This document shows, piece after piece, positions 9,597 to 35,911 of a DNA stretch of 64,000 nt. A program made the translations under genes and the position numbers. The stretch comes from Methylomonas koyamae (lineage in GTDB: Bacteria; Pseudomonadota; Gammaproteobacteria; Methylococcales; Methylomonadaceae). The stretch spans positions 434,001-498,000 of the forward strand of contig NZ_AP019777.1 in assembly GCF_019669905.1 (NCBI RefSeq), read 5' to 3'. Within the stretch, counting starts at the first letter, position 1; each line of letters starts with the position of its first letter. Under the pieces are notes generated by a model. The model saw nothing but the letters and a program-made list of their open reading frames with translations. It made no database searches and was not told where the DNA came from.

Positions 9597-10187
9597 ATGT
9601 CCACCGTGCTTCAACAAACCCGTTATACCGCCGAAGAATACTTAAGTCTGGAGCGCAGCACATCGATTAAAAGCGAATTCCACGACGGGCAAATTTATGC
9701 GATGACCGGCGCCAGCCGGGAACATAATTTAATTTCCGGAAATATTTATAGAGAACTCAGTCAGCAACTGAAAAGCCGTCCCTGCGAAGCCTACATCAAC
9801 GACATGCGGGTCAAGGCCACCGAAGCTTGCAGTTACCACTATCCCGACATCGCCGTGGTTTGCGGTAAACCCGAGTTCGAAGATGCGCAGGTCGATACTT
9901 TGCTCAATCCGATGCTGCTTATCGAAGTGCTGTCGCCATCCACCGAAGCCTACGACCGCGGCGGCAAGTTTGCCCATTACCGAAAAATACCCAGCTTGCG
10001 CGAATATCTGCTGGTGATGCAAGACCAGCCTGGTATCGAACGTTATCTGCGTCAAGGCGAAGTCTGGATATTGAGCGAGACGCTGGGCCTGGAAGCAAGC
10101 GTAGCGCTGGAAAGCATCGATTGCCGGCTCAGCTTGCGCGAGGTTTACGATAAGGTTTTTGAGGACAATGCAGGCGGGGAGGGGTAA
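9597..10187 (+). CDS. Uma2 family (DUF820) predicted nuclease
   Basis: A 196-residue Uma2/DUF820 protein with a PD-(D/E)XK-like restriction fold. Visible motifs are the N-terminal YTAEEYLSLERSTSIKSEFHDGQIYAMTGAS, followed later by YHYPDIAVVC with the candidate catalytic aspartate, then LLIEVLSPSTEAYDRGGKFAHY with a Glu and a Lys. These proteins are very abundant in cyanobacteria and scattered elsewhere; their biological role is unproven. The ATG at 9597 is preceded by GAGGTGA. The gene stands alone next to the integron relic, which suits an accessory gene. Confidence 0.85.
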   Translation: MSTVLQQTRYTAEEYLSLERSTSIKSEFHDGQIYAMTGASREHNLISGNIYRELSQQLKSRPCEAYINDMRVKATEACSYHYPDIAVVCGKPEFEDAQVDTLLNPMLLIEVLSPSTEAYDRGGKFAHYRKIPSLREYLLVMQDQPGIERYLRQGEVWILSETLGLEASVALESIDCRLSLREVYDKVFEDNAGGEG

Positions 10188-13981: not shown

Positions 13982-14032
13982 TTTGGTTTATTTCAACCAA
14001 TCGGCTTTTAAAAATGGCTTTTTTCAACCAAT
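13982..14032. promoter_or_regulatory. Repeated operator-like motif before the inorganic-carbon operon
   Basis: TTTCAACCAAT occurs at 13991-14001 and 14022-14032, starts 31 bases apart (about three helical turns). The first copy is part of an inverted repeat TTGGTT-N6-AACCAA; the second has a degenerate left arm (ATGGCT). The second copy overlaps the expected -35 region, so a transcription factor could control the operon here. Confidence 0.5.
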
Positions 14033-14044
14033 AGCCGGTAGAAT
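14016..14044 (+). promoter_or_regulatory. Candidate promoter of the DAB-type operon
   Basis: A good -10 box, TAGAAT (14039-14044), lies 32 bases before the first start codon. The sequence 17 bases upstream is a poor -35, which would fit an activator-dependent promoter using the neighbouring repeats. Confidence 0.4.
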
Positions 14045-14076
14045 GCGGCCATTTTCGACTCATTACCCTATCAACG

Positions 14077-15549
14077 ATGGCCATACTCAGCACGCTGCTT
14101 TGGACCCCCGCTGCCGGGGCGCTGGTGCTAGTACTGATTCCCGCCCAACGGGCGCAAGCGGTGCGCCTGGCGGCCAATCTGTTCGCCGCTGCGGCGCTGG
14201 TTCTGGCCTGCGTACTGTTGGCGCGCTACGATGCCGCCGATCCGGCATTGCAATTCAACGAATTCTACCCGCTCAACCCCAAACTCGGTAGCGCCTATGC
14301 CTTGGGCATCGACGGTCTGTCGTTGCCGATGCTGGTCCTGGCGGCGCTACTGACCTCGATTTCGCTGATCGCGTCCTTTAATCTGGCCGACGGCGTCAAG
14401 GGTTACCACATCTGCATCCTGCTGCTCGAATTCGGCATGCTCGGCGTGTTCATGGCCCAGGATTGGGCCTTGTTCTATATCTTTTGGGAAGTGACCCTGA
14501 TCCCGTTGTTTTTTCTGATCGACCGCTGGGGCGGCAAGCGCCGCCATGCCGCCAGCCTGAACTTCGTGCTGTACACGATGGGCGGCTCGGTGTTCATGCT
14601 GCTGAGTTTGTTGGCGATCAGCCAGTACGACTTGCAGAACCAGGGCTCGTTGATGGCGTCGATGGGGCAGGCGGCGCAGAACATGCCGGCCGTCGAACAA
14701 GTGCTGGTGCTGCTGGGTTTTTTGATCGGTTTCGGCGTGAAGATGCCGATTTTTCCGCTGCACGGCTGGTTGCCGCTGGCGCACGTCGAAGCGCCGAGCG
14801 CGGTCAGTATCCTGTTGTCCGGCATTTTATTGAAGATGGGGGCTTACGGCCTGCTGCGCTCGGTGGTGATGCTGCCGGTCGCCGCGCAAATGATCCAGCC
14901 GCTGCTGATGTTTCTGGCTCTGTTCGGTATGGTTTACGGCGGCCTGCTGGCTTGGCGCCAGCCGGACATGAAAGCGATGGTGGCCTATTCGTCGTTGAGC
15001 CACATGGGCGTGGTGTTGCTCGGCATCGCCACCTTGAACCGGACCGGCTTCATCGGCGCCATTCTGCAAATGAGCGCGCACGGCTTGATCGCCGGCGCCT
15101 TGTTCCTGCTGGTGGGGCTGCTGTACGAACGCACCCATACCCGCAATATCCAGGATTACAGTTCGCTAGTGCAGGTGATGCCGCGTTTTGCCGGGCTGGC
15201 GACGCTGGCGCTGTTGGCGGCGATGGGCCTGCCGGGCTCGATCGGCTTTGTCGCCGAATTGCATACCGTGATTGGCGGCTTTCAGCAATGGGGCGGCTGG
15301 ATGGCGTTTTTCAGCCTGAGCATACTGATCAGCGCGGCCTATGCCATGCGTACCATCGGCCTGCTGTTCACCGGTCCGGTCAAGCCGCAGATGCGCGACG
15401 TCGCCGATTTGACGCCGCCTGAGCTGGCGGCGTCGGCGGTTTTGGTCGGCGGTATCGTTGTATTCGGCTTGCTGCCGGCGCCGTTGATCGAGTTATCGGC
15501 CGCGTCGGTGGGGCGAATGTTGGCCGTGATCGGCGAGAGGTTGCTGTGA
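14077..15549 (+). CDS. NuoM/MrpD-like proton-channel subunit (first antiporter-like subunit)
   Basis: A 490-residue integral membrane protein of the Complex I/Mrp antiporter family with about 14 helices. It keeps the charged residues of a proton channel: Glu138 in FYIFWEVTLIPLFFL (TM5 glutamate) and Lys222 in FGVKMPIFPLHGWLP (TM7 lysine). No NADH or quinone module subunits of Complex I are nearby. It is the first gene of the cluster, 43 bases before the DabA gene, so its likely job is to couple ion flow to inorganic-carbon uptake rather than respiration. Electron-transfer coupling cannot be excluded from sequence alone. Confidence 0.85.
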   Translation: MAILSTLLWTPAAGALVLVLIPAQRAQAVRLAANLFAAAALVLACVLLARYDAADPALQFNEFYPLNPKLGSAYALGIDGLSLPMLVLAALLTSISLIASFNLADGVKGYHICILLLEFGMLGVFMAQDWALFYIFWEVTLIPLFFLIDRWGGKRRHAASLNFVLYTMGGSVFMLLSLLAISQYDLQNQGSLMASMGQAAQNMPAVEQVLVLLGFLIGFGVKMPIFPLHGWLPLAHVEAPSAVSILLSGILLKMGAYGLLRSVVMLPVAAQMIQPLLMFLALFGMVYGGLLAWRQPDMKAMVAYSSLSHMGVVLLGIATLNRTGFIGAILQMSAHGLIAGALFLLVGLLYERTHTRNIQDYSSLVQVMPRFAGLATLALLAAMGLPGSIGFVAELHTVIGGFQQWGGWMAFFSLSILISAAYAMRTIGLLFTGPVKPQMRDVADLTPPELAASAVLVGGIVVFGLLPAPLIELSAASVGRMLAVIGERLL

Positions 15550-15592
15550 TGCGGCTAAGCTACGTCGGCCGGGCTGATTCGGGAGCGGTCTG

Positions 15593-18500
15593 ATGGCGGT
15601 ATCGGTTACCGGCGAACTGGACCCGCGCGGCATTGTCCGCCAGGCGCTCGAGCATCTGGACCACGTATTGCCCGGCCAGGCGCCGATCCACGATTTCGTG
15701 CACCACAACACCTTGCACGGCTTTCAGCATTTGCCGTTCGAACAAGCCTTGGCCGAATTTACCGAGCTGACCGGCATCGACTGCTATCTGTCGGCCGAGC
15801 AGTTTCGCGAGTTCTACCGGCAACAACGCATCACCGACCGCGATCTCGATGCCGCGCTGCAGCAGCGCTTCGGCAGCGCTTTAACCGAACCGCTGGCCGG
15901 CTGCCCCGGCGCGGCGCGGCGCGAACTTTACCGCGCGGTTTTATTGCACGACGTTCAAGTTATTACCCCGCAGCAACTCGCCTGGCGGCTGCGCGAATCG
16001 GCCGAATTCGCCAGCGAAACTTGTGGCGGCCGGCCGCTGACGGAGCTGTGGCAGGCCGTATCGGCCAAATTGGAGTTGCCCGCAGCCGAGTTGCACCCCG
16101 AGGACATGTTGGAGCTATCCGCCGAGCAACTCGACGACTGGTTGCCGCAGATGGACGATGCCGAAAGTCCGGCACGCTGGTTCGGCCGGGTCGGCGACGG
16201 CCGGACTTGGCGCGGCGTGCTGCTGGCGTTGGCCGGCAAGGACATTCTGGATTCGGTGCGGCCGCAATTGATTCGCTTGTGCGCGTCGCTGCTCGACGAA
16301 GGTTTGGCGGCCTGGCGCTTGCCGCAGCGCCAGGAACTGGGGCTGTATGCGGCTTGGCGGCAGGCGCTGGAGTACGATGCGCTGCCGTTATTTCACGATT
16401 TGGACGATTGGCGCGGCATCACGGCGCGCTTGCCGGAGCAGTCGCTGGACGCCATCGTGCAGCAATTGCAGGCCATGGCGTTGCCGGCGGCACGCTGGGA
16501 AGGTTATTTGCGGCGGCTGGCGCTGGAGTTGCCGGGCTGGTCCGGCCTGGTCAACTGGCGGCAGCGGCACCCGGATTATCGGGAAGGCCGGCCGGTGCCG
16601 GTCGATTTGGCCGATTATCTGGCCATCCGCCTGGTGTTGGACCGGCTCTACGCGCAAGCGCTGTGCCGCAGCCTGTGGCATAGTCCGGCCCAACTAGACC
16701 GGTTGCAGGCATACTTTGAAATGCACCGAGCCGAATTCGCCGTGCGCCGGGCGCTGTTCGCCGGCGAATTGCCGGAGTATTTGGCTCAGGCCGCGCAGCA
16801 ATTGCTGTCTGCCGCCGATAGCTCGCGGCAAGCGTGGCAAACGCTGGCGGAACGGATTCGGACCTGGCGCCACAGCCCGTTGGCGGTAACTCCAAACCGA
16901 GTCAACGCGTGCGACCACGGTTGGCGGCTGTTTTCGCTGTGCCGCCATTTGGCTTTGGCGCCCGACACCGTGTCCGCTATGGACAAAAGCCAATTGCTGG
17001 CCTGGTTGCCTATCGTCGATGCGTTCGACGGCCAACAACGGGCCATGGTGTGGCTGGATGCTTACGAGCGCCATTACCGCCAGGAGTTATTGCAGGCCTT
17101 GCACGCCAACCGTGGCCGCGGCCGTTGGCGGCAGCGCGAGCGGCGGCCGCAGGCCCAGGTTTTTTTCTGCATGGACGAGCGCGAAGAAAGTTTCCGCCGC
17201 CATTTGGAAGAGTTGAATCCGGCCGTGGAAACCTTGGGTGCGGCCGGATTTTTCGGCGTGGCGATGGATTTTCAGGGACTGGACGACCATCATCCGACGC
17301 CGCTGTGCCCGGTGGTGGTCACGCCGGCGCACCGGGTCGAGGAAATCGGATTGGCCGGCAGCGATGATGCGCTGACCGCCCACCGCGCCGGCTTGAACCG
17401 GGCGCAAATCCTCAGCGATTGGCTGCATCAAACCTTACGCCGGCATCTGTTGCGGGCTTATCCGCTGTTATACCTGTTTGCGCCGCTGAAGCTGGCCGGT
17501 TTGTTGGGCAAGACCTTGTGGCCGGGTCTGCAATACCGTCTGGAACAGGCCTGGCAGACGAGTTTGGTGCCGGCGGCGCCGACCCGCTTGCAGTTCAGCG
17601 CGGATGCGGCAACGCCGGCCGCAGCGAAACCCGGTTTCAGCGACGAGGAGCAGGCGCAACGGGTCGGCCAATTTTTGCGGACCACCGGCTTGAGTTACGG
17701 CTTTGCCCGCATCGTCGCCATTTTGGGCCACGGTTCCACCAGCCAAAACAATCCGCACGAGGCCGCCCACGATTGCGGCGCCTGCGGCGGCCGCCGCGGC
17801 GGACCGAATGCCAGGTTGTTCGCGGCAATGGCCAACCGGCCGCAAGTGCGCGCCTTGTTGGCTGCGCAGGGCATCGCGATTCCGGACGATACCTGGTTCG
17901 TCGGCGGCCAGCACGATACCTGCAGCGACGCGATTGACTGGTACGACGCCGATCTGGTGCCGGCTGCACTGGCCGACGATTTCGCCCGGTTGCAGGCCGA
18001 TCTTGCAGAAGCCGACCGGCGGGCGGCGGCGGAACGTTGCCGGCGCTTTGCCTCGTCCGGTTATCCGGCTGCGCCGTGGGCCGCGTTCCGCCATGTGCAG
18101 CGCCGCGCCGCCGACTTGAGCCAGGTGCGGCCGGAGTTCGGTCACGCCACCAACGCCGCGGCGTTTATCGGCCGGCGCGCGGCGACGCAGGGCGTGTTTT
18201 TCGACCGCCGCCTGTTTTTGATTTCCTACGATCCGACCCAAGACGGCGACGGCGCGATTTTGGAGAACATTTTGCTGACCGCCGGACCGGTCGGCGCCGG
18301 CATCAATCTGGAGTATTACTTTTCGACCGTCAATAACGACCGGCTCGGCTGCGGCACCAAGATTCCGCATAACGTCACCGGTTTGTTCGGCGTGATGGAA
18401 GGCGCCGCCAGCGATTTGCGCACCGGTTTGCCGTTGCAGATGGTGGAAATTCACGAGGCGATGCGGCTGCAAATCGTGGTCGAGGCCAAGACCGAAGTGC

Positions 18501-18742
18501 TGGAACGCATTTACGGCCGGCAAGCGGCGTTGCAGGAACTGGTCGGCGGCGGTTGGGTGCATTTAAACGCTGTGGACCCGGACGACGGCCGGATTTTCCT
18601 GTTCGACCGCCGCGCCGGTTTCGTAGCCTGGCAACCGGAACCGCGCGAGTTGCCGCTGCGCGACGATTCGGCGGCCTGCTATGCCGGGCAGACCCAAGCC
18701 GTTGCGCCGATGCTGGTGCGGCAACCGGAAACCATGGAATAA
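15593..18742 (+). CDS. dabA: DabA-type inorganic carbon transporter subunit (DUF2309)
   Basis: A 1049-residue soluble or peripheral protein of the DUF2309/UPF0753 family, the DabA subunit of DAB complexes. These hydrate CO2 with a beta-carbonic-anhydrase-like zinc site driven by ion flow through an antiporter-like partner. The zinc-site residues are present with correct spacing: Cys526 and Asp528 in VFFCMDEREESF, His713 in ILGHGSTSQNNP, and Cys728 in AAHDCGACGG. The His-Cys distance of 15 equals that reported for Halothiobacillus DabA. It is longer than the roughly 830-residue characterised form, mainly before the CxD motif. GGGAG precedes the ATG. Confidence 0.95.
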   Translation: MAVSVTGELDPRGIVRQALEHLDHVLPGQAPIHDFVHHNTLHGFQHLPFEQALAEFTELTGIDCYLSAEQFREFYRQQRITDRDLDAALQQRFGSALTEPLAGCPGAARRELYRAVLLHDVQVITPQQLAWRLRESAEFASETCGGRPLTELWQAVSAKLELPAAELHPEDMLELSAEQLDDWLPQMDDAESPARWFGRVGDGRTWRGVLLALAGKDILDSVRPQLIRLCASLLDEGLAAWRLPQRQELGLYAAWRQALEYDALPLFHDLDDWRGITARLPEQSLDAIVQQLQAMALPAARWEGYLRRLALELPGWSGLVNWRQRHPDYREGRPVPVDLADYLAIRLVLDRLYAQALCRSLWHSPAQLDRLQAYFEMHRAEFAVRRALFAGELPEYLAQAAQQLLSAADSSRQAWQTLAERIRTWRHSPLAVTPNRVNACDHGWRLFSLCRHLALAPDTVSAMDKSQLLAWLPIVDAFDGQQRAMVWLDAYERHYRQELLQALHANRGRGRWRQRERRPQAQVFFCMDEREESFRRHLEELNPAVETLGAAGFFGVAMDFQGLDDHHPTPLCPVVVTPAHRVEEIGLAGSDDALTAHRAGLNRAQILSDWLHQTLRRHLLRAYPLLYLFAPLKLAGLLGKTLWPGLQYRLEQAWQTSLVPAAPTRLQFSADAATPAAAKPGFSDEEQAQRVGQFLRTTGLSYGFARIVAILGHGSTSQNNPHEAAHDCGACGGRRGGPNARLFAAMANRPQVRALLAAQGIAIPDDTWFVGGQHDTCSDAIDWYDADLVPAALADDFARLQADLAEADRRAAAERCRRFASSGYPAAPWAAFRHVQRRAADLSQVRPEFGHATNAAAFIGRRAATQGVFFDRRLFLISYDPTQDGDGAILENILLTAGPVGAGINLEYYFSTVNNDRLGCGTKIPHNVTGLFGVMEGAASDLRTGLPLQMVEIHEAMRLQIVVEAKTEVLERIYGRQAALQELVGGGWVHLNAVDPDDGRIFLFDRRAGFVAWQPEPRELPLRDDSAACYAGQTQAVAPMLVRQPETME

Positions 18743-18750
18743 CGACGACG

Positions 18751-20322
18751 ATGGCCGCATACGCATTCTTGATACCGCTGTTACCGCTGCTGGCTGCATC
18801 GTGCATCGGCGGCCTGCATTTTTTTAATCGGTTGCACGGTGTCGCCGGCGAGCGCATCAGCGTCCGCTTGGCAGTAGCGTCGATTGGCTTGGCCGCCGCG
18901 TTGGCCGCGAGTCTGGTCGGGTTGGAGCTGGTCGGCAGCGCCGGCGGGTTACAGGTTTACGGCAATTGGCTGGCCAGCGGCAAACTGGCGATAGCCTTTT
19001 CGTTGCAAGCGGGCGGTTTGAATATGGCATTGGCGGCCTTGTTCGGCGTGCTGTTGCTGGTCGTGGCCCGCTTTTCCGCCAATTACCTGCACCGCGAGCC
19101 CGGTTTTCACCGTTTTTTCTTTATTCTGAGCCTGTTTGCCGCGGCAATGCTGTTATTGGTGTTGGCCGGTAATGCGATATTCACCTTCGTCGGCTGGGAG
19201 GTCGCCGGGGTCTGTTCCTATCTGCTGATCGCCTACGCCTACGACCGGCCGGTAGCGGCGCACAACGCCACCCGCGCGTTTGTCACCAACCGGGTCGGCG
19301 ACGGCGGGTTTTTGCTGGGCATCGGCTTGATGCTGGCCTGGCTGGAAACCGCCGACTGGCAAAGCCTGAATGCCGGCGCGGCCGATCTGGACCGCGGCGA
19401 CGCCACCTTGCTGGCTTTAAGTTTTGCCGTCGCCGCCTTCGCCAAATCGGCGCAGATCCCGTTTACGCCGTGGTTGGCGCGGGCGATGGAAGGGCCGACG
19501 CCGTCCAGCGCGATCTTTTACGGCGGGGCGATGGTGCACGCCGGCGTGTTCCTGGCCATACAACTGCGGCCATTGTTCGAGCAGGCGCCGGCGGCGATGG
19601 CCTTGTTGGCGGCGATCGGGGCGATGACGGCGGTTTACGGCTATTGGGTGGGTTTGAGCCAGACCGATATCAAAAGCTCGCAGATATTCGCCGCGTCGGT
19701 GCAACTGGGATTGATGTTCGTCGAATGCGGTTGCGGCTGGTGGACGTTGGCGGTCTGGCATTTGGCGGCACATGCCGTGGTGCGTTGCTATCTGTTCCTG
19801 ACGGCGCCGTCGATTTTGCATAGCACGCATGGCCGGCCGATAGCGCCGGTCGCGGCCACGCTTGCCGATTGCCGCTGGGCCTTCGTGGCCTCGTTACAGC
19901 GCGGCTGGCTGGAACCGGCCGTGGATTGGTTGTTGGTGAAGCCGGTGTTGCAATTGGCCAAGGACGCCCGCTATATCGAAGAGCGGATTCTGGACCCGCT
20001 GATGGGCTCGCCGGCGCCGGCGATTCGGGCGATGTCGACGTTGGCGCAACGCGAGGAGCAAAAAATGGGTGCCAATCTGAGCAGTGCCGAAGACCGTTTC
20101 GCCCAGGGTAGCGGTCTGGCCGGCAAGCTGGCGCAATGGACGGCGGCGTTGCTGAACTGGTTCGAATACCATTTCATCTTGCGCGGCATCGGCCGCGACT
20201 CGATCCAGGTCGGACGCCGGCTGGGGCGGGCGGCCAACCGTTTCGAACATTTGCTGCTGCGAGCCCGTTATCTGGCACTGTTCGTCTTGATTACCTTGAT
20301 GGTGGCTTTGGGATACCGATGA
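18751..20322 (+). CDS. dabB: DabB-like / NuoL-type antiporter subunit
   Basis: A 523-residue membrane protein of the NuoL/MrpA type. Channel residues are conserved: Glu150 in FVGWEVAGVCSYLL and Lys232 in AAFAKSAQIPFTPWLARAME. It lacks the full lateral helix of NuoL but keeps a soluble C-terminal part (FEYHFILRGIGRDSIQVG). It starts 8 bases after the dabA stop and is the closest match to the canonical DabB partner. Its stop overlaps the next start (ATGA). The frame is open further upstream inside dabA, but the protein-like sequence begins at MAAYAFLIPLLPLL. Confidence 0.87.
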   Translation: MAAYAFLIPLLPLLAASCIGGLHFFNRLHGVAGERISVRLAVASIGLAAALAASLVGLELVGSAGGLQVYGNWLASGKLAIAFSLQAGGLNMALAALFGVLLLVVARFSANYLHREPGFHRFFFILSLFAAAMLLLVLAGNAIFTFVGWEVAGVCSYLLIAYAYDRPVAAHNATRAFVTNRVGDGGFLLGIGLMLAWLETADWQSLNAGAADLDRGDATLLALSFAVAAFAKSAQIPFTPWLARAMEGPTPSSAIFYGGAMVHAGVFLAIQLRPLFEQAPAAMALLAAIGAMTAVYGYWVGLSQTDIKSSQIFAASVQLGLMFVECGCGWWTLAVWHLAAHAVVRCYLFLTAPSILHSTHGRPIAPVAATLADCRWAFVASLQRGWLEPAVDWLLVKPVLQLAKDARYIEERILDPLMGSPAPAIRAMSTLAQREEQKMGANLSSAEDRFAQGSGLAGKLAQWTAALLNWFEYHFILRGIGRDSIQVGRRLGRAANRFEHLLLRARYLALFVLITLMVALGYR

Positions 20323-21854
20323 CGACCGATATTGTTTATTGGCAAGCTGCCGCGGCATTTCCGGTGTTGAGCGTGTTGACCGCGCTGCCGCTGTTGACCT
20401 GCGGCGCGGTTTTGGGCTTGAAAGGCTGGCGGCTGTGGCCGACCGCGTTGACCGGCGCGGTGCTGAACGTGGTGTTGAGCATTTATCTGCTGTGGGTGTT
20501 CGACGCCGAAGCCCCCGGCATCCATCTGGCCGAGAAAATCGACGGCCTGGGCTACCGGGTCGGCGTCGACGGCACCAATATTCTGTTCATCCCGTTGACG
20601 GCGGTGTTGGGCGCGCTGGCACTGGTCTATACCCTGATCACCCGCCACTGCAACGACCGCTTGTTCGTCGCCTGTCTGCTGGCTTACCAAGGCATTCTGA
20701 TCGGCGCATTTGCGGCGCTGAATACGCTGCAGTTTTGGTGCTGGAGCCTGTTGGAGCTGGTGCCGGTGGCCTTGCTGACCATGGTTGCCGGTACCGGCCG
20801 CTTACGTAACCAGGCCGTCAAAACCCTGCTGCAATACTGGTTGTCCGCTCTGGCGATGAGTTTGGCCGGATTTCTGTTGTTGAGCTTCGGTCTGGCGGCG
20901 AACGGTATGGAATTGAGCTTCGATTGGCTGGCGTTGAAGCAGCATAATCTGGCGATTCCGAACGAGACCTTGATCTTTCTGTTGCTGTTCTTCGGCTTCG
21001 CGGTGCGGATGCCGCTGTTTCCGTTCCACGCCTGGCTGCCGGTACTGGGCGAACACGGTACCGCAGCCAGTGCGGCGATTTTCCTGCACGGCCTGAAGCT
21101 GGGCATCTACGCCTTAATCCGTTTCATCTTGCCGCTGACGCCGGGCGCCGCCGAACAATGGACCCATTTCGTCGTCACGCTGGGGTTGATCGGGATTTTT
21201 TACGGCGCATTGCTGGCCTTGATGCAAATCAACATGCGGCGCTTGATCGCGTTCGCGGTAATCAGCCATACCGGCATGCTGGCCATCGGCGTATTTTCGT
21301 TCAACGATTTTGCGCTGGAAGGCAGTATTTTGTTGTCGGTGGCCTACGGTCTGGCTTCCGCCGGCATGCTGTTCAGTATCGGCCTGATTTACGAACGTAC
21401 CCGCACCTCGTTTCTGCCGCGCTTGGGCGGGCTGTTCGAGACCAATTCGACCTTGGCCCTGCTGTTTCTGATCTCGGCGCTGAGTACCATGGTGATGCCG
21501 GGCACGCCCGGATTCGACGCCGCCCACCTGCTGATCGAGGGCACCATCGAAGAGCACGGCTGGTGGATCGCGATCTCGATTCTGTTGGGCAACGTGCTGG
21601 GCGCGGCGTTTTTATTATGGGCGTTTCAGCGCCTGTTCATCGCCCATCCGCGCCGTTTCGTGCAGCCTTACGGCAGTATCCACCATCCGGTACTGAAAGA
21701 ACGCATCATCGCCGTCACCGTGTGCGGTTTATTGATAGGCACCGGTTTTTATACGACGCCTTGGTTGAAATACATCGACCAGGAAGCCCGCGAAATCGGC
21801 GAGCATTATCCGGCCCACCATCGCCACCACATCAACGAGACCCACCATGAATGA
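20319..21854 (+). CDS. NuoM-like subunit with altered channel residues (third antiporter-like subunit)
   Basis: A 511-residue polytopic NuoM/MrpD-family protein. The usual TM7 lysine is replaced by Arg230 (FGFAVRMPLFPFHAWLP). At the TM5 position where relatives have Trp-Glu it reads FWCWSLLELVPVAL, so Glu146 sits about three residues later and the canonical position is leucine. It ends with a His-rich tail (HYPAHHRHH). Start and stop overlap both neighbours (ATGA; then 8 bases), showing tight coupling. The altered residues suggest a different or impaired proton path; this is an inference from motif alignment by eye. Confidence 0.84.
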   Translation: MTTDIVYWQAAAAFPVLSVLTALPLLTCGAVLGLKGWRLWPTALTGAVLNVVLSIYLLWVFDAEAPGIHLAEKIDGLGYRVGVDGTNILFIPLTAVLGALALVYTLITRHCNDRLFVACLLAYQGILIGAFAALNTLQFWCWSLLELVPVALLTMVAGTGRLRNQAVKTLLQYWLSALAMSLAGFLLLSFGLAANGMELSFDWLALKQHNLAIPNETLIFLLLFFGFAVRMPLFPFHAWLPVLGEHGTAASAAIFLHGLKLGIYALIRFILPLTPGAAEQWTHFVVTLGLIGIFYGALLALMQINMRRLIAFAVISHTGMLAIGVFSFNDFALEGSILLSVAYGLASAGMLFSIGLIYERTRTSFLPRLGGLFETNSTLALLFLISALSTMVMPGTPGFDAAHLLIEGTIEEHGWWIAISILLGNVLGAAFLLWAFQRLFIAHPRRFVQPYGSIHHPVLKERIIAVTVCGLLIGTGFYTTPWLKYIDQEAREIGEHYPAHHRHHINETHHE

Positions 21855-23406
21855 AGGTTTGCCGTTATTGACGCTATGCCTGTTATGGCCCTTGCTCGGC
21901 GCGTTGGCGATTGGCTGCGTCCGCGATAGCGGCCGGGCGAAGCGGCTGGCCTTGGCGGTGGCCGGCGTCGAATTGCTGCTGACTTTGGGCGTCGTCTACG
22001 GGTTCGATCCGAGCGACGGCGGCTTTCAATGGCAGGAACAATACTCGTGGATACCCAGCCTGAACGCTTACTACGCGGTCGGGGTGGACGGCGTTTCGCT
22101 ATTGTTTCTGCCGCTGACGGCTTTGCTGACCTTGATGGCGCTGTTGGCCGGCTGGAACGCGGCAACGCGCTTGCACCGCTTTCACTTGGCGCTGATGCTG
22201 ATATTGGAAAGCGCCACCGTCGGCGTGTTCGTGGCATTGGACATGGCTTTGTTTTTTCTGTTTTGGGAGTTGACGCTGCCGCCGATTTTTTTCCTGGCCG
22301 GTTTATGGGGGATCGGTGCCGAACGGCGCCAGGCCGCGTTGAAGTACACCTTATATATGTTGTTCGGCGGCGTGCCGCTGTTGTTCGCGATCGCGACGCT
22401 GGCGTTGAACCACGTTCATTACACCGGCGGCGACATGCCGGGCGGCTTGGCCTTCAGTTTGCCGGTGTTGCTGAACACGCCGATGGACGCTGCATCGCAA
22501 GAACTGGTGTTTTTCCTGCTGATGCTCGGCTTCGCCGTCAAGGCGCCGCTAGTGCCGTTTCATACCTGGCTGCCGACGCTGGCGATGGAAGGGCCGGCTT
22601 TTCTCAGCGCGTTGTTGGTCGGTTTGAAGTTGGGTTTGTACGGTATCGTCCGCTTTGCCTTGCCGTTGGCGCCGCAAGCGGCACTGGAGCACCGCTGGCT
22701 ATTGGCCATCGTCGGCGCGGTTACGCTGGTATACGCGGCCCTGATCGCAATGCAGCAAACCAATCTGCGCCGCTTACTGGCCTATGCCAGCATTAGCCAC
22801 GTCGGTTTGGTATTGGTGGGTTTGGCCGCATTCAATTACCAGGGCCAGCAAGGCGCGTTGCTGCAGTTGCTGAATTTTACCGTGGCCGCCGGCAGCCTGA
22901 TGCTGATGGCCGGTATGTTGCAACAGCGCATGGGCAGTTGCGAGCTGGTGCATTTGGGCGGATTGGCCAAACCGGCGCCGCGCTTGGCTTGCTTGTTCTT
23001 TTTGTTTGCGCTGGCTAACATGGGGGTACCGGGTACTAACGGTTTTCCAGCGGAATTGCTGGTTTTGGTCGGTACCTTGCAGGCGTATCCGGCCTTGGCG
23101 CTGGTGGCTTTGTTCGGCGCCGTGTTGAGTGCCGCTTATTTGCTCGGTTTTGCCAGGAAGGCCTTTTTCGGGCCGACCGGAACCGTGTCCGCCACTTGCC
23201 CCGATCTGACGACGCGCGAGCTGGTGCTGTTGTTGGTGCCGGCTGTGCTGGTGCTGATGGTGGGATTCAGCCCGCAAAGCGTGTTAGCCTGGCCGGAAAG
23301 CAGCCTGCAAATGCGGCAACGGGCCGTGGCCGAAGCGGAGGCGGTGCGTGCGGCTTCCGGGCCGATTTCGTCGCGGGCCGTGGTTTACCAACAGGGCTCG
23401 ATTTAA
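21847..23406 (+). CDS. NuoM-like proton-channel subunit (fourth antiporter-like subunit)
   Basis: A 519-residue integral membrane protein of the Complex I/Mrp family with canonical channel residues: Glu141 in FFLFWELTLPPIFFL and Lys232 in FAVKAPLVPFHTWLP. A conserved loop NMGVPGTNGFPAELLVL is also seen. It overlaps the preceding gene by 8 bases, so the four membrane subunits and DabA appear to be one transcript. The carbonic anhydrase gene follows after about 150 bases. No signal peptide is needed because the first helix acts as anchor. Confidence 0.86.
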   Translation: MNEGLPLLTLCLLWPLLGALAIGCVRDSGRAKRLALAVAGVELLLTLGVVYGFDPSDGGFQWQEQYSWIPSLNAYYAVGVDGVSLLFLPLTALLTLMALLAGWNAATRLHRFHLALMLILESATVGVFVALDMALFFLFWELTLPPIFFLAGLWGIGAERRQAALKYTLYMLFGGVPLLFAIATLALNHVHYTGGDMPGGLAFSLPVLLNTPMDAASQELVFFLLMLGFAVKAPLVPFHTWLPTLAMEGPAFLSALLVGLKLGLYGIVRFALPLAPQAALEHRWLLAIVGAVTLVYAALIAMQQTNLRRLLAYASISHVGLVLVGLAAFNYQGQQGALLQLLNFTVAAGSLMLMAGMLQQRMGSCELVHLGGLAKPAPRLACLFFLFALANMGVPGTNGFPAELLVLVGTLQAYPALALVALFGAVLSAAYLLGFARKAFFGPTGTVSATCPDLTTRELVLLLVPAVLVLMVGFSPQSVLAWPESSLQMRQRAVAEAEAVRAASGPISSRAVVYQQGSI

Positions 23407-23554
23407 CTTAGGCCGAAAGCGCGAACCAGGCCGGAAAATTGATTGGCATATAGTTTCGAATCGATATAGTATTGACTTCAGCCCGGCCTGCTTTAGGTCG
23501 GCGTACCGAAAAACTCATTCTGTTATTGGGATTACCCCATTAAGGACGACAACT

Positions 23555-24187
23555 ATGCATACTCCTGCGAAATTATTGTTAGAAAATAGAGCCTGGTCCG
23601 AAGAAATCAGTAGAAAGGACCCGGATTTTTTTGCCCAATTGGCCAAGGAACAAAAACCGGATTTTTTGTGGATCGGTTGTTCCGACAGCAGGGTGCCGGC
23701 GGATACCATCGTTAACGCCAGACCGGGCGAGATTTTCGTCCACCGCAACATCGCCAACCAGGTTATAGTCACCGACTTCAACTGCCTCAGCGTGGTGCAA
23801 TACGCCGTCAACGTCTTGAAAGTCAAACACGTCATCGTCTGCGGCCATTACGGTTGCGGCGGGGTCAAGGCAGCGTTGCAGCAGCAAAAATCCGATCTGG
23901 TCATAGCCAACAAATGGCTGATGCATATCAAGGACGTGTACCGCCTGCACCAGGAAGAGCTGGAGTCGGTATCGCCGGAGCAGAAAGTGGACCGCCTGAT
24001 CGAGTTGAACATCGTCGAACAGGTCTACCGCTTGGCGTATACCTCGATTATCCAGTCCGCCTGGCGCCACGGCCACAAACCCAGCTTGCACGGCTGGGTA
24101 TACGGTTTGAACGACGGTTTGATCCAGGAATTGATCAAGCTCGACCATAACACCCAGATCAATCCGATTTACCGTTACGCGGATTAA
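23555..24187 (+). CDS. can: Beta-class carbonic anhydrase
   Basis: A 210-residue beta-carbonic anhydrase interconverting CO2 and bicarbonate. Zinc ligands are Cys42, His98 and Cys101, with the Asp44-Arg46 dyad in WIGCSDSRVPADT and the second motif VIVCGHYGCGGVK. The numbering equals that of E. coli Can, so this is the Can subtype. AAGGACG precedes the ATG at 23555; the frame runs open into the previous gene but the family start is here. Its position after the DabA cluster and before a SulP transporter fits a concerted inorganic-carbon system. Confidence 0.96.
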   Translation: MHTPAKLLLENRAWSEEISRKDPDFFAQLAKEQKPDFLWIGCSDSRVPADTIVNARPGEIFVHRNIANQVIVTDFNCLSVVQYAVNVLKVKHVIVCGHYGCGGVKAALQQQKSDLVIANKWLMHIKDVYRLHQEELESVSPEQKVDRLIELNIVEQVYRLAYTSIIQSAWRHGHKPSLHGWVYGLNDGLIQELIKLDHNTQINPIYRYAD

Positions 24188-24220
24188 ACCGCGAGCTCCC
24201 TTAACTACCGATTGAAGCCA

Positions 24221-25780
24221 ATGACATCGCAACTGAATTTGTACTTGAAGCATTTGCACCAGGATTTGCCGGCCGGCATCGTGGTTTTTCTGGTGGCGCT
24301 GCCGCTCTGCCTGGGCGTGGCGCTGGCGTCCGGCGCGCCGCTGTTTTCCGGGATCATTGCCGGCCTGATCGGCGGTTTGCTGGTGTCCTGGGCCAGCGGC
24401 TCGCAGCTCAGCGTGTCCGGTCCGGCCGCCGGTCTGACCGTGATCGTGTTCGAGGCGATAGAGACTTTGGGCGGTTTCGGCGGCTTTTTGTTGAGCGTCG
24501 TGCTGGCCGGCGGGTTGCAGATTGTGTTGGGCTTCTTGAAAGCCGGGGTCATCGGTGCGTTTTTTCCGGCGGCGGTGATCAAAGGCATGCTGGCGGCCAT
24601 CGGTTTGATTTTGATCATCAAGCAGACGCCGCACGCCACCGGTTTCGACGCCAGCCCCGAAGGCGACGAGAGCTATATGCAGGAGACCGCCGAATCGAGT
24701 TTTTTCGAATTGTCGGAAGCATTGGAAGGCATTACGCCGGGCGTGACGCTGGTCAGCGTCGTGGCCTTGCTGATCCTGATCATTTGGGACAGCGCTTTCG
24801 TCAAACGCGTTAAAGCGTTTCGGCTGGTGCCGGGGCCGTTGCTGGCCGTGATTTGGGGCGTCGGCTTCAATGTCGCGGCGTTGCGCTATTTTCCGGAACT
24901 GGCGATCAGCGAGAAGCATTTGGTTTCGTTGCCGGAGTTGGGCAGCACCGCCAATTTCCTCAACCAGTTGCGGTTACCGGATTTCAGCTATTTCGATAAT
25001 CCGAAAATTTATTCGATTGCTGTGACCATCGCCGTTATCGCCAGCCTGGAAACCCTGTTGAGCATCGAGGCGGTCGATAAGCTGGACCCGCATAAACGGG
25101 TGGCGCCGACCAACCGCGAGTTGAAGGCGCAGGGCTTGGGCAATGTCGTCAGCGGCCTGATCGGCGGCTTGCCGATCACCGCGGTAATCGTACGCAGTTC
25201 GGCCAATATCAACGCCGGCGGCCAAACCCGGGTGGCCAGCTTTTTCCACGGCGTGCTGTTGATGGTCAGCGTGCTGTTTTTCGCCAAGTACCTGAACATG
25301 ATCCCGTTGGCCTGTCTGGCGGCGATATTGCTGCAAACCGGTTACAAATTAGCCAAGCCGGGCATGTTCGTCGAGTTTTACCGCAAGGGCTGGAACCAAT
25401 TCCTGCCGTTCGTCATTACCGTTGGCGCGATTCTGTTGACCGATTTGCTGGTCGGTATCGCGATCGGTATGATCTGCGGCTTCTTCTTCGTGTTGCGCGC
25501 CAATTTCCACGCCGCGATTACGTTGACCCAACACGGCGAACACTATCTGTTGCGTTTGCATAAAGACGTATCGTTTTTGAACAAGGCCTTGCTGCGCAAG
25601 TATCTGCAAGAGGTACCGGATGATTGCGAGTTGCTGATAGACGGTTACAAGGCGCAATTCGTCGATTTGGATATTCTGGAGACCATCGGCGATTTCATGC
25701 TGTCAGCGCCGGACCGCGGCATTGCCGTGGAAATCCAAGGCATTCCGTTGGAAGACATTACGCCGTCCGCCGGCCATTGA
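24221..25780 (+). CDS. SulP family anion (probable bicarbonate) transporter
   Basis: A 519-residue SLC26/SulP transporter. The N-terminal DLPAGIVVFLVALPLCLGVALASG and about a dozen further helices form the transport domain, with GLIGGLPITAVIVRSSANIN in the core. A short C-terminal STAS-like domain follows (about residues 440-519). The family carries sulfate, bicarbonate or other anions. Coupling to a carbonic anhydrase gene 33 bases upstream points to bicarbonate, as with BicA-like proteins, but specificity cannot be read from sequence. The ATG at 24221 is preferred over a TTG 9 bases upstream. Confidence 0.88.
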   Translation: MTSQLNLYLKHLHQDLPAGIVVFLVALPLCLGVALASGAPLFSGIIAGLIGGLLVSWASGSQLSVSGPAAGLTVIVFEAIETLGGFGGFLLSVVLAGGLQIVLGFLKAGVIGAFFPAAVIKGMLAAIGLILIIKQTPHATGFDASPEGDESYMQETAESSFFELSEALEGITPGVTLVSVVALLILIIWDSAFVKRVKAFRLVPGPLLAVIWGVGFNVAALRYFPELAISEKHLVSLPELGSTANFLNQLRLPDFSYFDNPKIYSIAVTIAVIASLETLLSIEAVDKLDPHKRVAPTNRELKAQGLGNVVSGLIGGLPITAVIVRSSANINAGGQTRVASFFHGVLLMVSVLFFAKYLNMIPLACLAAILLQTGYKLAKPGMFVEFYRKGWNQFLPFVITVGAILLTDLLVGIAIGMICGFFFVLRANFHAAITLTQHGEHYLLRLHKDVSFLNKALLRKYLQEVPDDCELLIDGYKAQFVDLDILETIGDFMLSAPDRGIAVEIQGIPLEDITPSAGH

Positions 25781-30230: not shown

Positions 30231-31706
30231 TTAGCCCAACATCCCGGCAATCTCCCGAAAACACGCCAACCCTGCCTCCACGTTGTCGATAATCTCGGCA
30301 GCAATATCATCCGGTTCCGGCAGATTATCCAAATCGGCCAGTGACTTATCCTTCAGCCAAAAAATATCCAGACTGGTTTTATCCCGCGCCAGGATTTGCT
30401 CGTAACTGAACTTGCGCCAGCGGCCTTCCGGGTTGGTTTGCTCGTGCCAGGTTTCGGTGCGTTGATGACGATTTACCGGGTTATAGCAGTCGATAAAATC
30501 CTGCAAATCTTCGATGCGCAGTGGTTTCTTTTTCAGCGTGTGATGGATATTGGTGCGGTAATCGTAATACCAGACTTCCTTGGTCCACGGGTTCGGACTG
30601 GCCTCGCGGTTATCAAAAAACAGCACATTCGCTTTAACGCCATTGGCATAGAAAATACCGGTCGGTAGCCGCAGGATGGTGTGCAAATCGGTATTCTGCA
30701 TCAGCTTTTGGCGGACTTTTTCCCCAGCACCGCCTTCAAACAACACATTATCCGGCACCACCACGGCGGCACGGCCGCTGATTTTCAGCATGCTGCGAAT
30801 GTGCTGCACAAAATTCAACTGCTTGTTGGAGGTGGTCGCCCAAAAATCCTGGCGGTTGTAGGTTAAATCGTCTTTTTCCTGCTCGCCTTCCTCGTTGGTA
30901 AAAGTCATGCTGCTTTTCTTACCAAACGGCGGATTGGCCAGCACATAATCCACCGTTTCCGCCGGCGGCGATACCAAGGCATCGTTGGCGGACACGGCAC
31001 TGTTGCCGTCGATCTCGCCAATGTTATGCAAAAACATGTTCATCAAGCACAGGCGGCGCGTGTTGGCGACGATCTCGTTACCGTAAAAAGTTTCGTGCTT
31101 CAAAAACGCCAACTGCTTTTTATCCAACGGATAATTGGTTTTCAAAAAATCATAGGCCGCCAAAAAGAATCCGCCGGTGCCGCAGGCTGGGTCGGCAATG
31201 CTCTTGCTCGGCTCAGGCCGCACACATTCCACCATCGTTTTGATCAAAGCCCTCGGCGTAAAGTATTGGCCCGCGCCGGACTTGGTATCCTCCGCGTTTT
31301 TTTCCAGCAGACCCTCGTAAATAGTGCCCTTGGTGTCCGCACCCAACAACACCCAATCGGTATCGTTGACCAGCTCGATTAGCCGCGACAACTTGGCGGG
31401 GTCTTGAATCTTGTTTTGCGCCTTGGTGAAAATTTGCCCCAGCATCCCCGGCTTGTTGCCCAGTTCGCGCAGCAACAGCACATAATGCCCTTCCAGCGCC
31501 GCGCCTTTTTTGGCTTTCAGGCTTTGCCAGTTGTAGTCGGCCGGAATGCCGACATTGCGGTTATGCGGCGGCCGGCTGTACTCGTCGGCCATTTTCAAAA
31601 AAATCAGATAGGTCAGCTGTTCCAGATAATCGCCATAGCCCACGCCATCATCGCGCAGGGTGGTGCAAAAACTCCAGACTTTGGAAACGATGGATTCGGC
31701 GTTCAT
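30231..31706 (-). CDS. hsdM: Type I restriction-modification DNA methyltransferase subunit
   Basis: A 491-residue N6-adenine methyltransferase. The N-terminal HsdM domain begins MNAESIVSKVWSFCTTLRDDGVGYGDYLEQ. The SAM motif is DPACGTGGFFLAAYD and the catalytic motif IV is VLANPPFGKK. It would pair with HsdS to recognise and methylate the host site. It is the last gene of the hsd operon, read hsdR-hsdS-hsdM on the minus strand, and is separated from hsdS by a DUF4160/DUF2442 pair. The methylase looks intact, but its specificity subunit is broken. Confidence 0.93.
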   Translation of the reverse strand: MNAESIVSKVWSFCTTLRDDGVGYGDYLEQLTYLIFLKMADEYSRPPHNRNVGIPADYNWQSLKAKKGAALEGHYVLLLRELGNKPGMLGQIFTKAQNKIQDPAKLSRLIELVNDTDWVLLGADTKGTIYEGLLEKNAEDTKSGAGQYFTPRALIKTMVECVRPEPSKSIADPACGTGGFFLAAYDFLKTNYPLDKKQLAFLKHETFYGNEIVANTRRLCLMNMFLHNIGEIDGNSAVSANDALVSPPAETVDYVLANPPFGKKSSMTFTNEEGEQEKDDLTYNRQDFWATTSNKQLNFVQHIRSMLKISGRAAVVVPDNVLFEGGAGEKVRQKLMQNTDLHTILRLPTGIFYANGVKANVLFFDNREASPNPWTKEVWYYDYRTNIHHTLKKKPLRIEDLQDFIDCYNPVNRHQRTETWHEQTNPEGRWRKFSYEQILARDKTSLDIFWLKDKSLADLDNLPEPDDIAAEIIDNVEAGLACFREIAGMLG

Positions 31707-31724
31707 TATCAGTTTTCTAACAGT

Positions 31725-32087
31725 TTATTCATAAGATTGACGCACAGATTGCAGTGTGTCGGATAAGGGCAAACGTTCGCCAGACGCAAGTTGCGCTAGC
31801 GAAGTGTTGATATCGTTTATGATTTCTAACCATGTAATGTTCTTCCCCGTCGCCCGCTCGTACAAGGTTTCCGGCGACACATCGAAGCCGCAATCCCAAA
31901 CCACGGTAGACCACTCATCCAGGCTGAATTGTTGAAAGCGGCTTTTATCGCGTAAGGGTTCTGCTGCCGGGTATTTGAAAACTAAATCCTGCAAATCCAC
32001 CTCACCGTTCGCGCCGTCGTTGAAGTGCAGGCGTAATCGGTAGTCACCCAGATACTCTGCTTGAGTTACGCTAATAATGATGTTCAC
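31725..32087 (-). CDS. DUF2442 family protein (first copy)
   Basis: A 120-residue DUF2442 protein (YLGDYRLRLHFNDGANGEVDLQDLVFK, then WDCGFDVSPETLYERATGKN). These small proteins commonly follow DUF4160 genes and are thought to form toxin-antitoxin-like pairs, but no activity is shown here. It starts directly after the DUF4160 stop and ends 18 bases before hsdM. A second, diverged DUF2442 copy occurs at 35.4 kb in the same operon. Confidence 0.8.
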   Translation of the reverse strand: MNIIISVTQAEYLGDYRLRLHFNDGANGEVDLQDLVFKYPAAEPLRDKSRFQQFSLDEWSTVVWDCGFDVSPETLYERATGKNITWLEIINDINTSLAQLASGERLPLSDTLQSVRQSYE

Positions 32088-32088
32088 C

Positions 32089-32322
32089 TCACACCAGGGG
32101 TTCGAGTTTATGAAAATCCTTGCTCTGCCACATCATCAGCAATTCAGCCCATTCTTCCACCAAGCCGCGAACCTTGCCGGGTAAATAACCCGCCAGAATA
32201 TTGAGCGTTTGGATATCCATCACTGCTTTATAGTCGTTGTATTTGACATGAAAATGCGGCGGATTTTGATCGGCGAAATACATCAAAATCACGATACCGA
32301 GAAAGCGGCAGATTTCAGGCAT
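32089..32322 (-). CDS. DUF4160 family protein (first copy)
   Basis: A 77-residue DUF4160 protein with the typical core VILMYFADQNPPHFHVKYN, in which PPHFHV is the family hallmark. It overlaps the end of the hsdS distal fragment by 8 bases and is followed at once by DUF2442. The pair is likely a small two-gene module. The module sits between hsdS and hsdM, so it shares the restriction operon transcript unless it has its own promoter. Confidence 0.82.
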   Translation of the reverse strand: MPEICRFLGIVILMYFADQNPPHFHVKYNDYKAVMDIQTLNILAGYLPGKVRGLVEEWAELLMMWQSKDFHKLEPLV

Positions 32323-32662
32323 GCTTGGTTTTCCTTGACTTGGGTTTGTCGGATGCGGCTTTCTCGGCGCGTATCCGTTCCAACAACACGCTGGCCGGTT
32401 CGTCGTTCGGGTCTTGCGGGACCAACTGGCCGGAGAAGGCTTTTTTCAGGATAGACTGGCGCAGGGCTTCGGCTTGTTGCAGGGCGGTGGTGATGGTTTG
32501 GTCGAGTTGGTCAATGATTGATAAATTTGTTTCGACTTCGGTAAGCACTTTCTGCTGCTCTTCGACACCACATAGAGCAACTATCAATGATTGAATTTCT
32601 CCTGAGTTTATATTGTTAACACCACTCGTTGATTTTGCTTTTGCCTCAATCTGCTTTCTTAA
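32315..32662 (-). pseudogene. hsdS: hsdS distal (C-terminal) fragment beyond IS insertion
   Basis: This part encodes about 114 residues (RKQIEAKAKSTSGVNNINSG onward) of the type I specificity subunit, ending with the distal conserved helix and tail (QAEALRQSILKKAFSGQLVP). It is separated from the proximal part by an IS5-like element. Removing the element and one TTAA copy joins the two parts in frame as ...AAHSL-RKQIEAK..., giving a normal HsdS of about 534 residues. Translation could start within the element, but a functional product is unlikely. Confidence 0.88.
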
Positions 32663-34017: not shown

Positions 34018-35278
34018 TTAAAGAATGTGCCGCAAGCTGATTAACTAAATATGTGGAAGCAATTAAAACTTGATTTGGGCGTAGCTTAATCAAATATCCG
34101 GCATACAAATAGTTAATGTCTTGCTCAGAAACTAATGCGCATTTTCCCACTATCGAAATGCTACCGTTAGAGCGAATTAATAAAATATCTCCAACATCGA
34201 GTTTGTATGAAGCTCTTTCATCTGCGTCAAATTGTGCAAACTTAAGATCGGACGCATTAATTTTTCCAGAAACTACGTTTGGAATTCTAAGAACGCCTAT
34301 TCCATCAACTTCGTAGTCACATTTTTTGGCAGTTCCGTAAGTAGGTTCGTCTATTAACGCGCCAAGTCTTGAATACACCCATCCCTCTGGCAATTCCGGC
34401 AACTCGGCCAATTCTTCAGCAGTAAGCGGCGGCAAGGTTTTGGGGGCTTTGGGTTTGGAAATCCCCCCTAGCCCCCCTTTTTCAAAGGGGGGGATTTTGG
34501 GGTGTTTCGAATCGGGCTTCCCCTTTTGTAAAAGGGGGATTGAGGGGGATTTGTCCTCCCAGTCTTTGAGTTGTTGCTGATAGCGTTGCTGGCGTTCGGT
34601 TTGGATGCGTTGCAGCAGGGTTTCGGCGCTTTCCAATTTACCCGCATTCTCCGCCCGCCATTGCTCGGTGAGCTTGCCGGAAAAGGCGTGTTTCAACAGC
34701 GCTTGCCGGTAGATTTTCAGCTGCTCGCGGGCGGTTTTAAAACTTTCGATGCCTTTATCCAGCTCGGAAAACAAGGCTTCGATTTTGGCGACGATGCGGT
34801 GTTGTTCTGAGAGTGGTGGCAACTCAAAGTCTAAATCAGTTAGCTGTTTTTTCGTTATTCCGGAAATTGTTGTTCCGCGACCGTCAAACTTTAGATATTG
34901 AAGTTTATAACTCAAAAGATAGAGAGTGTATTCTGGACAAATTATTTTTGGGCTTTGTATAAGTCCCTGCAAATCTTGGCTAAAGCATATCGATGTTTCG
35001 GATATTGCTATCTTGCCTAAACCAACACGAGTAACAACTAAAAGGGTTTTCGGAGGAACCTTATTTGTCGTACTTTCTTTAATACCTTTTTCAGATACAT
35101 ATTTCCTGATTTTTATTTGACGTACACTCTCAATGTCAGCGCTTGTAACCCAAGGAATATTTCCATCCCAGTAATCTGGAACTTCAGTTGATGGAGTTCC
35201 ACCTCCAACAACTTGATAGACGTTACCTAACGTGGTTGTCTCCCAGGTCTGCGGTATTTTTTTTGCTAGAGTATTCAA
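34018..35278 (-). pseudogene. hsdS: hsdS proximal fragment (type I specificity subunit), disrupted
   Basis: About 420 residues of a type I HsdS. First target-recognition domain: TWETTTLGNVYQVVGGGTPS, about residues 10-170. Central conserved helix: PPLSEQHRIVAKIEALFSEL to KIYRQALLKHAFSGKLTEQW. A linker follows, then most of the second recognition domain (GWVYSRLGALIDEPTYGTAK onward). An IS element interrupts it after AAHSL; the frame then stops within the element at 34007. The start is a TTG that overlaps the stop of a duplicated hsdR tail (TTGA). The linker carries an inserted palindromic repeat. The truncated protein might still act as a half subunit, but loss of function is more likely. Confidence 0.88.
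34459..34552. repeat. Palindromic repeat pair inserted in the hsdS reading frame
   Basis: Two C/G-run palindromes lie in the linker of hsdS: AATCCCCCC ... GGGGGGATT (34460-34496) and CCCCTTTTGTAAAAGGGG (34520-34537). On the coding strand they read as SPSIPLLQKG and IPPFEKGGLGGI peptides. This is a familiar translation of a dispersed palindromic element. The frame stays open through it. Confidence 0.75.
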
Positions 35279-35877: not shown

Positions 35878-35911
35878 TATAAACCCCGCTTCAATCGGTC
35901 ATATTGCAAAC

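Follow-up and report, generated by a model that had tools for sequence, protein, structure and literature searches.

In the methanotroph Methylomonas koyamae, five genes of a tightly packed operon probably encode one complex driven by the proton motive force (PMF), in which a DAB-type vectorial carbonic anhydrase hydrating CO2 is joined to a membrane arm like that of Complex I. Compared with the two-part CO2-uptake machines studied to date, to which it is related, the module is larger and built in a different way. It was analysed in a window of 64,000 nucleotides (contig NZ_AP019777.1, positions 434,001 to 498,000), where the genes M1-DabA-L-M2-M3 occupy 14077-23406 on the + strand. The one-complex reading rests on the conserved order, the retention of the parts when they are dispersed, the fusion of L with M2 and the co-occurrence of both, as well as on the zinc site and beta-carbonic-anhydrase-like model of DabA, the proton-path residues of M1 and M3 and the lateral ion-pair residues of L. 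The single particle of five subunits, H+ as the ion, the direction and the signal path are what we infer.

M1 (14077-15549), a NuoM-type subunit, matches PF00361 and scores 475.8 bits with the NCBIfam model NDH_I_M (cut-off 263.8). It is followed by a DabA of the long class with 1049 amino acids (15593-18742; PF10070, 841.7 bits), by the NuoL-like subunit L, a probable DabB of 523 amino acids (18751-20322; PF00361, homologous to NuoL from residue 1 as far as about 360), and by M2, an altered NuoM-type subunit (20319-21854; NDH_I_M, 276.7 bits), and M3, again NuoM-type (21847-23406; NDH_I_M, 449.7 bits), both with PF00361 matches. The original prediction, made from the letters of the window, had described the order M-DabA-L-M-M, and gene coordinates and Pfam matches agree that it is real; the overlaps it had reported, ATGA between L and M2 and eight bases between M2 and M3, were found as well.

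Outside the three DabA loci of the host, a PF00361 search of the genome detected no Complex-I-type membrane subunits, and NuoH had no PF00146 match in the genome, in a search that was positive in 11 of 14 controls. A remnant of Complex I or Mrp was rejected on these grounds, and the extra subunits are not part of an ordinary Complex I or Mrp locus, the host having neither. The large subunit of RuBisCO was not found in the host genome, consistent with the suggestion that the Calvin cycle may be missing. A RuBisCO match is also missing in 74 of 92 relatives with any DabA, hence such machinery does not serve the Calvin cycle only. The host further possesses two strong matches to beta-carbonic anhydrases, with which the predicted pull of CO2 against a steeper gradient sits badly.

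A search for the gene order in other genomes, which had been proposed with the original prediction, recovered the five genes as one uninterrupted run at 43 of 53 loci of other genomes and at 55 of 80 loci with names, two collections which overlap slightly (four exact duplicates among 120 DabA rows). Over 98 loci with the run, median gaps are 7, 1, -4 and -6 bases, and this recurrence exceeds chance. Carriers are methanotrophs, ammonia oxidisers, nitrite oxidisers, sulfur oxidisers and Magnetococcales. In the genomes checked that have an interrupted run (G082, G057, G061, G224 and G478), its members turned up at other places. Among 369 class-wide genomes, L-type genes are present in 17, M2-type genes in 17 and both in 16, so that 16 of the 18 genomes with either gene possess both; DabA was present in all 15 L-bearing genomes tested. 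The extra subunits thus co-occur with DabA, as they should if they belong to it. The two mismatches of L and M2 (G467, G364) sit at contig ends.

These distributions bear on an unlikely alternative, namely that DabA and L form an ordinary two-part DAB pair, and M1 to M3 a translocator of protons or cations in its own right, merely co-transcribed with the pair. Two-part DAB systems function alone, according to the available part of PMC13144422, two further DabA loci of the host are devoid of extra M genes, and M1-DabA may occupy an operon apart from L-M2-M3. Against a separate translocator stand the presence of both gene types in 16 of the 18 genomes with an L- or M2-type gene, the fusion of L and M2 into one gene (G348, G218, L166, L169, L171), the reduced membrane part of L, which is without TM12-15, and the fact that M1 stays clustered with DabA even in split operons. 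In trees, M1, M2, M3 and L of the window each lie next to their counterparts from Nitrosomonas marina (L131) within their clades, and the DabA of the window groups with Nitrosomonadales, placements which fit a unit passed on together. A single recruitment of M1, M2 and M3 was neither rejected nor established, with an AU p value of 0.305 (33 rows). Mutual information over 94 loci (about 66 effective) was uninformative on contacts: M2 had high values with everything, and the DabA-L control was not outstanding.

In DabA, C526, D528, H713 and C728 align with the zinc-site residues of DabA2 and were kept together with R530 in 44 of 44 rows; in the larger alignment C526, H713 and C728 with D528 and R530 are intact in 120 of 120 rows, which confirms the intact zinc site that had been predicted. 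This site with its Asp-Arg dyad is shared with DAB2 of Halothiobacillus neapolitanus (DabA2-DabB2, PDB 9rd0), where a NuoL-like membrane partner gene likewise adjoins DabA; here L follows DabA directly. Unlike DAB2, a two-part complex, the module has four membrane genes, adding three NuoM-type subunits. Its DabA is about 190 residues longer, Ser356 is replaced by Glu and Leu658 by His (His851, a His in 120 of 120 rows), and Glu444 of the DAB2 finger is not kept, Glu being absent from the five commonest letters at this position, which cover 91 of 120 rows and where the alignment is unsure. The best structural matches of an AF2 model of DabA are beta-carbonic anhydrases; 9rd0 was not among the matches listed for DabA or the other chain model (structure library to April 2026). 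A Na+/HCO3- symporter devoid of carbonic anhydrase activity, as argued for MpsAB, which is held to use sodium in the accessible text of PMC13144422, would agree with the SulP genes frequently close by; it is very improbable in view of a zinc site intact in every one of the 120 rows and of the NuoM proton-path residues in M1 and M3.

The tree of the four antiporter-like proteins, which includes no verified Mrp row, places M1 to M3 in the NuoM clade and L near NuoL, so that the proposed hybrid of DAB and a Complex-I-like arm fits. An Mrp antiporter was discarded, M1 to M3 falling in this clade and M1 reaching only 141.9 bits with the MrpD model (cut-off 542), as against its 475.8 bits with NDH_I_M. 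M1 holds all proton-path residues of NuoM, with E138, K222, K253, H309 and H335 in 113 of 114 rows (one gap) and E394 in all 114. M3 keeps them except at H348, which is Phe (E141 in 96 of 97 rows, K232 and K261 in 97 of 97, E403 in 95 with two gaps). In M2, the TM5 Glu occurs in none of 101 rows and the TM7 Lys is replaced by R230 in all of them, whereas K260 (100 of 101) and, in TM12, D400 (100 of 101) and H403 (101 of 101) are conserved.

The NuoL homology of L ends near residue 360, a DabB2-type profile matches residues 82-360, and after TM11 only one hydrophobic segment follows in 97 of 103 rows, whereas at least three were present in 12 of 12 DAB2-type DabBs. By sequence and by the overlay of a structural model, L is a NuoL without TM12-15. 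For this reason, L alone can probably not carry a proton across the membrane, and letters aligned with K399/D400 of NuoL were disregarded, TM12 being absent from L. The lateral ion-pair residues E150, R181, D184 and K232 are kept, the tail is weakly similar to the lateral-helix region of NuoL, and docking of DabA by L as its DabB partner is probable. The several ion channels of the original prediction therefore stand in part: M1 and M3 look complete, but L is without TM12-15 and M2 without TM5 Glu and TM7 Lys. Four equal channels are not supported by the residue patterns; besides M1 and M3, there is perhaps one more channel, shared by L and M2.

Such sharing leads to a tentative proposal, which we regard as possible: L and M2 may be two halves of a single proton path, making the complex a carbonic anhydrase with a split channel beside two complete ones. 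L would retain the first half (TM5 Glu, TM7 Lys, TM9-11) and have lost TM12-15; M2, having lost the first-half residues (TM5 Glu; TM7 Lys to Arg) and kept the TM8 Lys, would substitute for the lost part with its second half, in which TM12 has gained the conserved Asp400 and His403. The L-M2 fusions, which occur in Competibacter-type genomes, fit this proposal. In an Acidobacteria-labelled relative (L199), four further TM segments are still present in L, and the counterpart of M2 is already devoid of the TM5 Glu, retains the TM7 Lys and carries adjacent Glu and His (GFNGEHL), which looks like an earlier step toward a split path.

In the favoured single complex, DabA would be attached to L from the cytoplasmic side and convert CO2 to bicarbonate at its zinc site, L would dock DabA and relay, and M2 would be the specialised partner of L. 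PMF-driven protons would pass through M1 and M3, and their movement would be transmitted laterally to L and DabA, in the manner proposed for Complex I and NDH-1MS. Carboxylases apart from RuBisCO could then use the bicarbonate, or it could help to control pH. More protons per bicarbonate, if true, could permit work at low PMF; by our own arithmetic, at 60 mV one proton would allow about tenfold and three about thousandfold accumulation. Complex-I-type subunits would apparently power a carbonic anhydrase with no electron transfer involved, offering a natural test of sideways energy passing, which is debated for Complex I itself.

Methanotrophs release CO2 intracellularly, and with a host lacking a RuBisCO match this would suit reverse energetics, in which an exergonic DabA reaction such as hydration of metabolic CO2 powers the M subunits as ion exporters that maintain pH or ion balance. 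The accessible portion of PMC5700660 proposes such a direction for ybcC operons; we consider it quite unlikely, since DAB2 is described as PMF-driven, proton-coupled and unidirectional in excerpts of PMC13144422, and the free energy of CO2 hydration would be small near equilibrium.

The single complex with a Complex-I-like arm resembles the membrane arm of Complex I (NuoL/M/N) in its NuoL- and NuoM-type subunits and in the tail of L. Unlike Complex I, the cluster contains three NuoM-type subunits and no NuoN-type, and no redox part was found in a redox-side search confined to NuoH (PF00146). Cyanobacterial NDH-1MS (NdhD3/NdhF3-CupA) similarly has an antiporter-like chain whose terminal NuoL-type subunit bears a zinc protein that hydrates CO2 (available text of PMC6981117) and has been modelled with a sideways signal along these subunits (PMC13144422; PMC6981117, both in part); it is redox-driven, and CupA has no beta-carbonic anhydrase fold, whereas DabA here is best matched by such enzymes.

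NuoM genes beside DUF2309 were already reported in 2017 (PMC5700660, available part), wherefore the module is a known kind in new form. The 'clade C' ybcC/DUF2309 operons of this COGNAT paper likewise have a nuoL homologue downstream of ybcC and genes for NuoM and SulP in the vicinity, and its authors linked membrane gene number to ion number. The accessible part of the paper gives no fixed five-gene make-up, truncated L or altered M2 for them, and neither fusion nor carbonic anhydrase function; within open-licence literature, as far as accessible, it was the only source on multi-NuoM DabA clusters.

Behind M3 and a gap of 148 bases follow, on the + strand, a Can-type beta-carbonic anhydrase (23555-24187; Pro_CA; NF007756, 267.3 bits versus 251) and a SulP-family transporter (24221-25780, or from a TTG at 24212; PF00916, Sulfate_transp). 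Both are present as predicted, but as variable neighbours: of 38 stretches that extend from about 6 kb upstream of DabA to about 9 kb downstream, 13 contain the pair, which lies upstream in three of these. With this gap and variable presence, they were dropped as machine parts, and the carbonic anhydrase is probably a separate unit. A promoter-like site at 23443-23470 was not above chance (four found in the scan, 4.0 expected). SulP scored below the cut-offs of the BicA, DauA and sulP models.

A SulP-linked DabA-L class of the host (G000:C1:1644636) is the sister class in the DabA and L trees and shares the active-site His and Glu of DabA. Unlike the module, it has no M genes in the fetched stretch, and its DabB is longer (about 630 amino acids) with more hydrophobic segments; a TM12-like motif near the C-terminus of this DabB gave weak profile matches only (E 0.044 and 0.0024). 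The TM5 Glu of L was dropped as a marker of multi-subunit systems, for this one-DabB class also carries it.

Five genes on the + strand of the window form a packed run, M1 (14077-15549), DabA (15593-18742), L (18751-20322), M2 (20319-21854) and M3 (21847-23406), in which M1 to M3 are NuoM-type membrane subunits, L is NuoL-like and DabA is the PF10070/DUF2309 zinc protein. A Can-type beta-carbonic anhydrase (23555-24187, +) lies 148 bases after M3 and is followed by a SulP transporter (24221-25780, +). Overlaps among the membrane genes and the zinc residues of DabA (C526, D528, H713, C728) had been given correctly in the original prediction.

The order M1-DabA-L-M2-M3 recurred as a single run in 43 of 53 loci (38 picked among the relatives' long DabA hits, plus 15 from class-wide sampling that carried an L-type match) and, complete, in 55 of 80 named loci, the top 80 from over 579 relatives; the two collections overlap slightly (116 of 120 DabA rows distinct). 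In this named scan the closest loci were from Methylomonas, with the best DabA segment 65% identical, which makes a Methylomonas-like methanotroph the probable host. Median intergenic gaps along the run were 7, 1, -4 and -6 bases (98 loci). Exceptions among the 53 loci comprised M1-DabA only (L051, L064, L070), an L-M2 fusion (L090, L095), contig ends (L096, L103), dispersed parts (L101, L102) and a different class with NuoL and two NuoM (L058). The last, from genome G098, encodes a DabA whose 658 position is Leu, beside a full-size NuoL-like gene and two NuoM-like genes, and is another multi-subunit class. The 25 misses among the best 80 named loci were classed as 16 contig ends and nine variants (L146, L153, L165, L166, L169, L171, L184, L199, L203).

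L-M2-M3 were located elsewhere in genomes G082, G057 and G061, and in G478 the parts are spread over three places. G224 keeps M1-L-M2-M3 together with DabA on a separate contig; this DabA belongs to the long clade, although its branch is long and its placement unsure. L and M2 are fused into a single protein of 1045 aa in G348 and G218, whose M1 and M3 genes lie apart from it, and the fusion likewise occurs in L166, L169 and L171, L169 and the G348 fusion being probably one and the same contig. Among 369 class-wide genomes, the extra subunits did co-occur: L-type genes were found in 17, M2-type in 17 (20 matches minus three NuoM-looking ones at 30-33% identity) and both in 16. A Thiothrix MAG (L184) has the DabA-L pair doubled within the cluster (M1-DabA-L-DabA-L-M2-M3). 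An Acidobacteria-labelled MAG (L199) shows M1-DabA-L and two NuoM-like genes, with L full-length and M2 intermediate, a stage in evolution that may have preceded the five-gene form.

M1, M2, M3 and L each formed a single clade in a tree of 86 rows (SH-aLRT 99-100). As a tree of the four antiporter-like proteins it placed M1-M3 with NuoM, M2 being joined to M3 (support 99), and L beside the DabBs of the SulP-linked class of DabA-L pairs (support 88), near NuoL; a common origin of M1, M2 and M3 was not rejected by a tree test. The window adjoins Nitrosomonas marina in the M1, M2, M3 and L clades alike, and its DabA clusters with Nitrosomonadales, shared neighbours such as would be seen for a unit passed on together.

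That the membrane proteins might instead be parts of an ordinary Complex I or Mrp locus elsewhere was ruled out in the host genome (5.10 Mb, 2 contigs, completeness given as 99.97%), since PF00361 matches were restricted to three loci, every one with a DabA, and NuoH had no match there in a search positive in 11 of 14 control genomes. Besides the window, these loci are a DAB2-type pair near C1:4236842 (L040, G000:C1:4230000-4246000) and a SulP-linked DabA-L pair near C1:1644636 (L041, G000:C1:1636500-1653500), so that one methanotroph holds three kinds of DAB.

For NuoM we take the key residues to be E144, K234, K265, H322, H348 and E407, numbers checked only for matching residue letters in E. 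coli NuoM. M1 has equivalents of the first five in 113 of 114 rows (one gap) and of E407 in 114/114; M3 keeps the same residues apart from the H348 position, which is Phe (96/97 rows). M2 has the TM5 Glu in 0/101 rows, an Arg replacing the TM7 Lys in all 101, the TM8 Lys in 100/101, and at the E407 position in TM12 no Glu, with D400 in 100/101 and H403 in 101/101; these changes are uniform across rows and not decay-like. L carries a Glu at TM5 as well as R181 and D184 in 102/103 rows, and K232 in 103/103 (numbering of L itself; the NuoL numbers used for comparison are those of PMC13144422). The TM5 position is Ile, Met or Ala in 12/12 DAB2-type DabBs and Glu in 10/10 of the SulP-linked class. 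In SulP-linked DabBs (L041, L214-L223) a lateral-helix-like stretch is joined straight to TM11 and a TM12-like motif lies near the C-terminus, as if permuted, with weak profile matches.

In DAB2, the DabA2-DabB2 pair of Halothiobacillus neapolitanus, protons are thought to pass through DabB2 and the finger Glu of DabA (excerpts of PMC13144422), whereas the window system lacks both this Glu and TM12-15 of L, and its proton route must therefore differ. Complete NuoM-type paths are retained in M1 and M3. From this comparison we infer that M1 and M3 would tap the PMF and that energy would then travel sideways from them into L and DabA. A relay of this kind has been argued for NDH-1MS, in which NdhF3, the terminal subunit, likewise retains the ion pairs but has no lateral-channel charges (excerpts of PMC6981117). 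The half lost from L may be provided by M2.

In line with the suspected lack of a Calvin cycle in the host, the RuBisCO large subunit had no match in its genome in a search positive in 5 of 14 control genomes. RuBisCO likewise had no match in 74 of 92 relatives with any DabA, nor in 27 of 38 with a fetched locus (11 matched, one of them, G069, broken). Given that most DabA-bearing relatives miss it, the product is likely used by other carboxylases or in pH adjustment. A strong concentrating role is spoken against because cytosolic carbonic anhydrase would put a bicarbonate surplus at risk of dissipation (passages of PMC10880623); the host genome has three beta-carbonic anhydrase matches, two of them strong.

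Passages of PMC5700660 already describe ybcC/DUF2309-nuoL with neighbouring NuoM and SulP genes, and offer the guess that the number of ions rises with that of membrane genes. As far as searches of open-licence literature show, the fixed five-part make-up, truncated L, altered M2 and L-M2 fusion are new, as is the His-type active site (His851 at the DabA2 Leu658 position) in the long five-gene DabA class; the system is filed as a variant of DAB, not as DAB2.

Elsewhere in the window, type I restriction-modification genes (30231-38677, - strand) have S and R subunits by Pfam and an M-like 491-aa ORF assigned by eye only, with a transposase gene (32827-33939) between them. A PI-PLC-X domain protein (60395-61483, - strand) adjoins coproporphyrinogen oxidase and an NlpE-like gene, and a Uma2-family protein (putative restriction endonuclease, PF05685) is encoded at 9597-10187 (+ strand).
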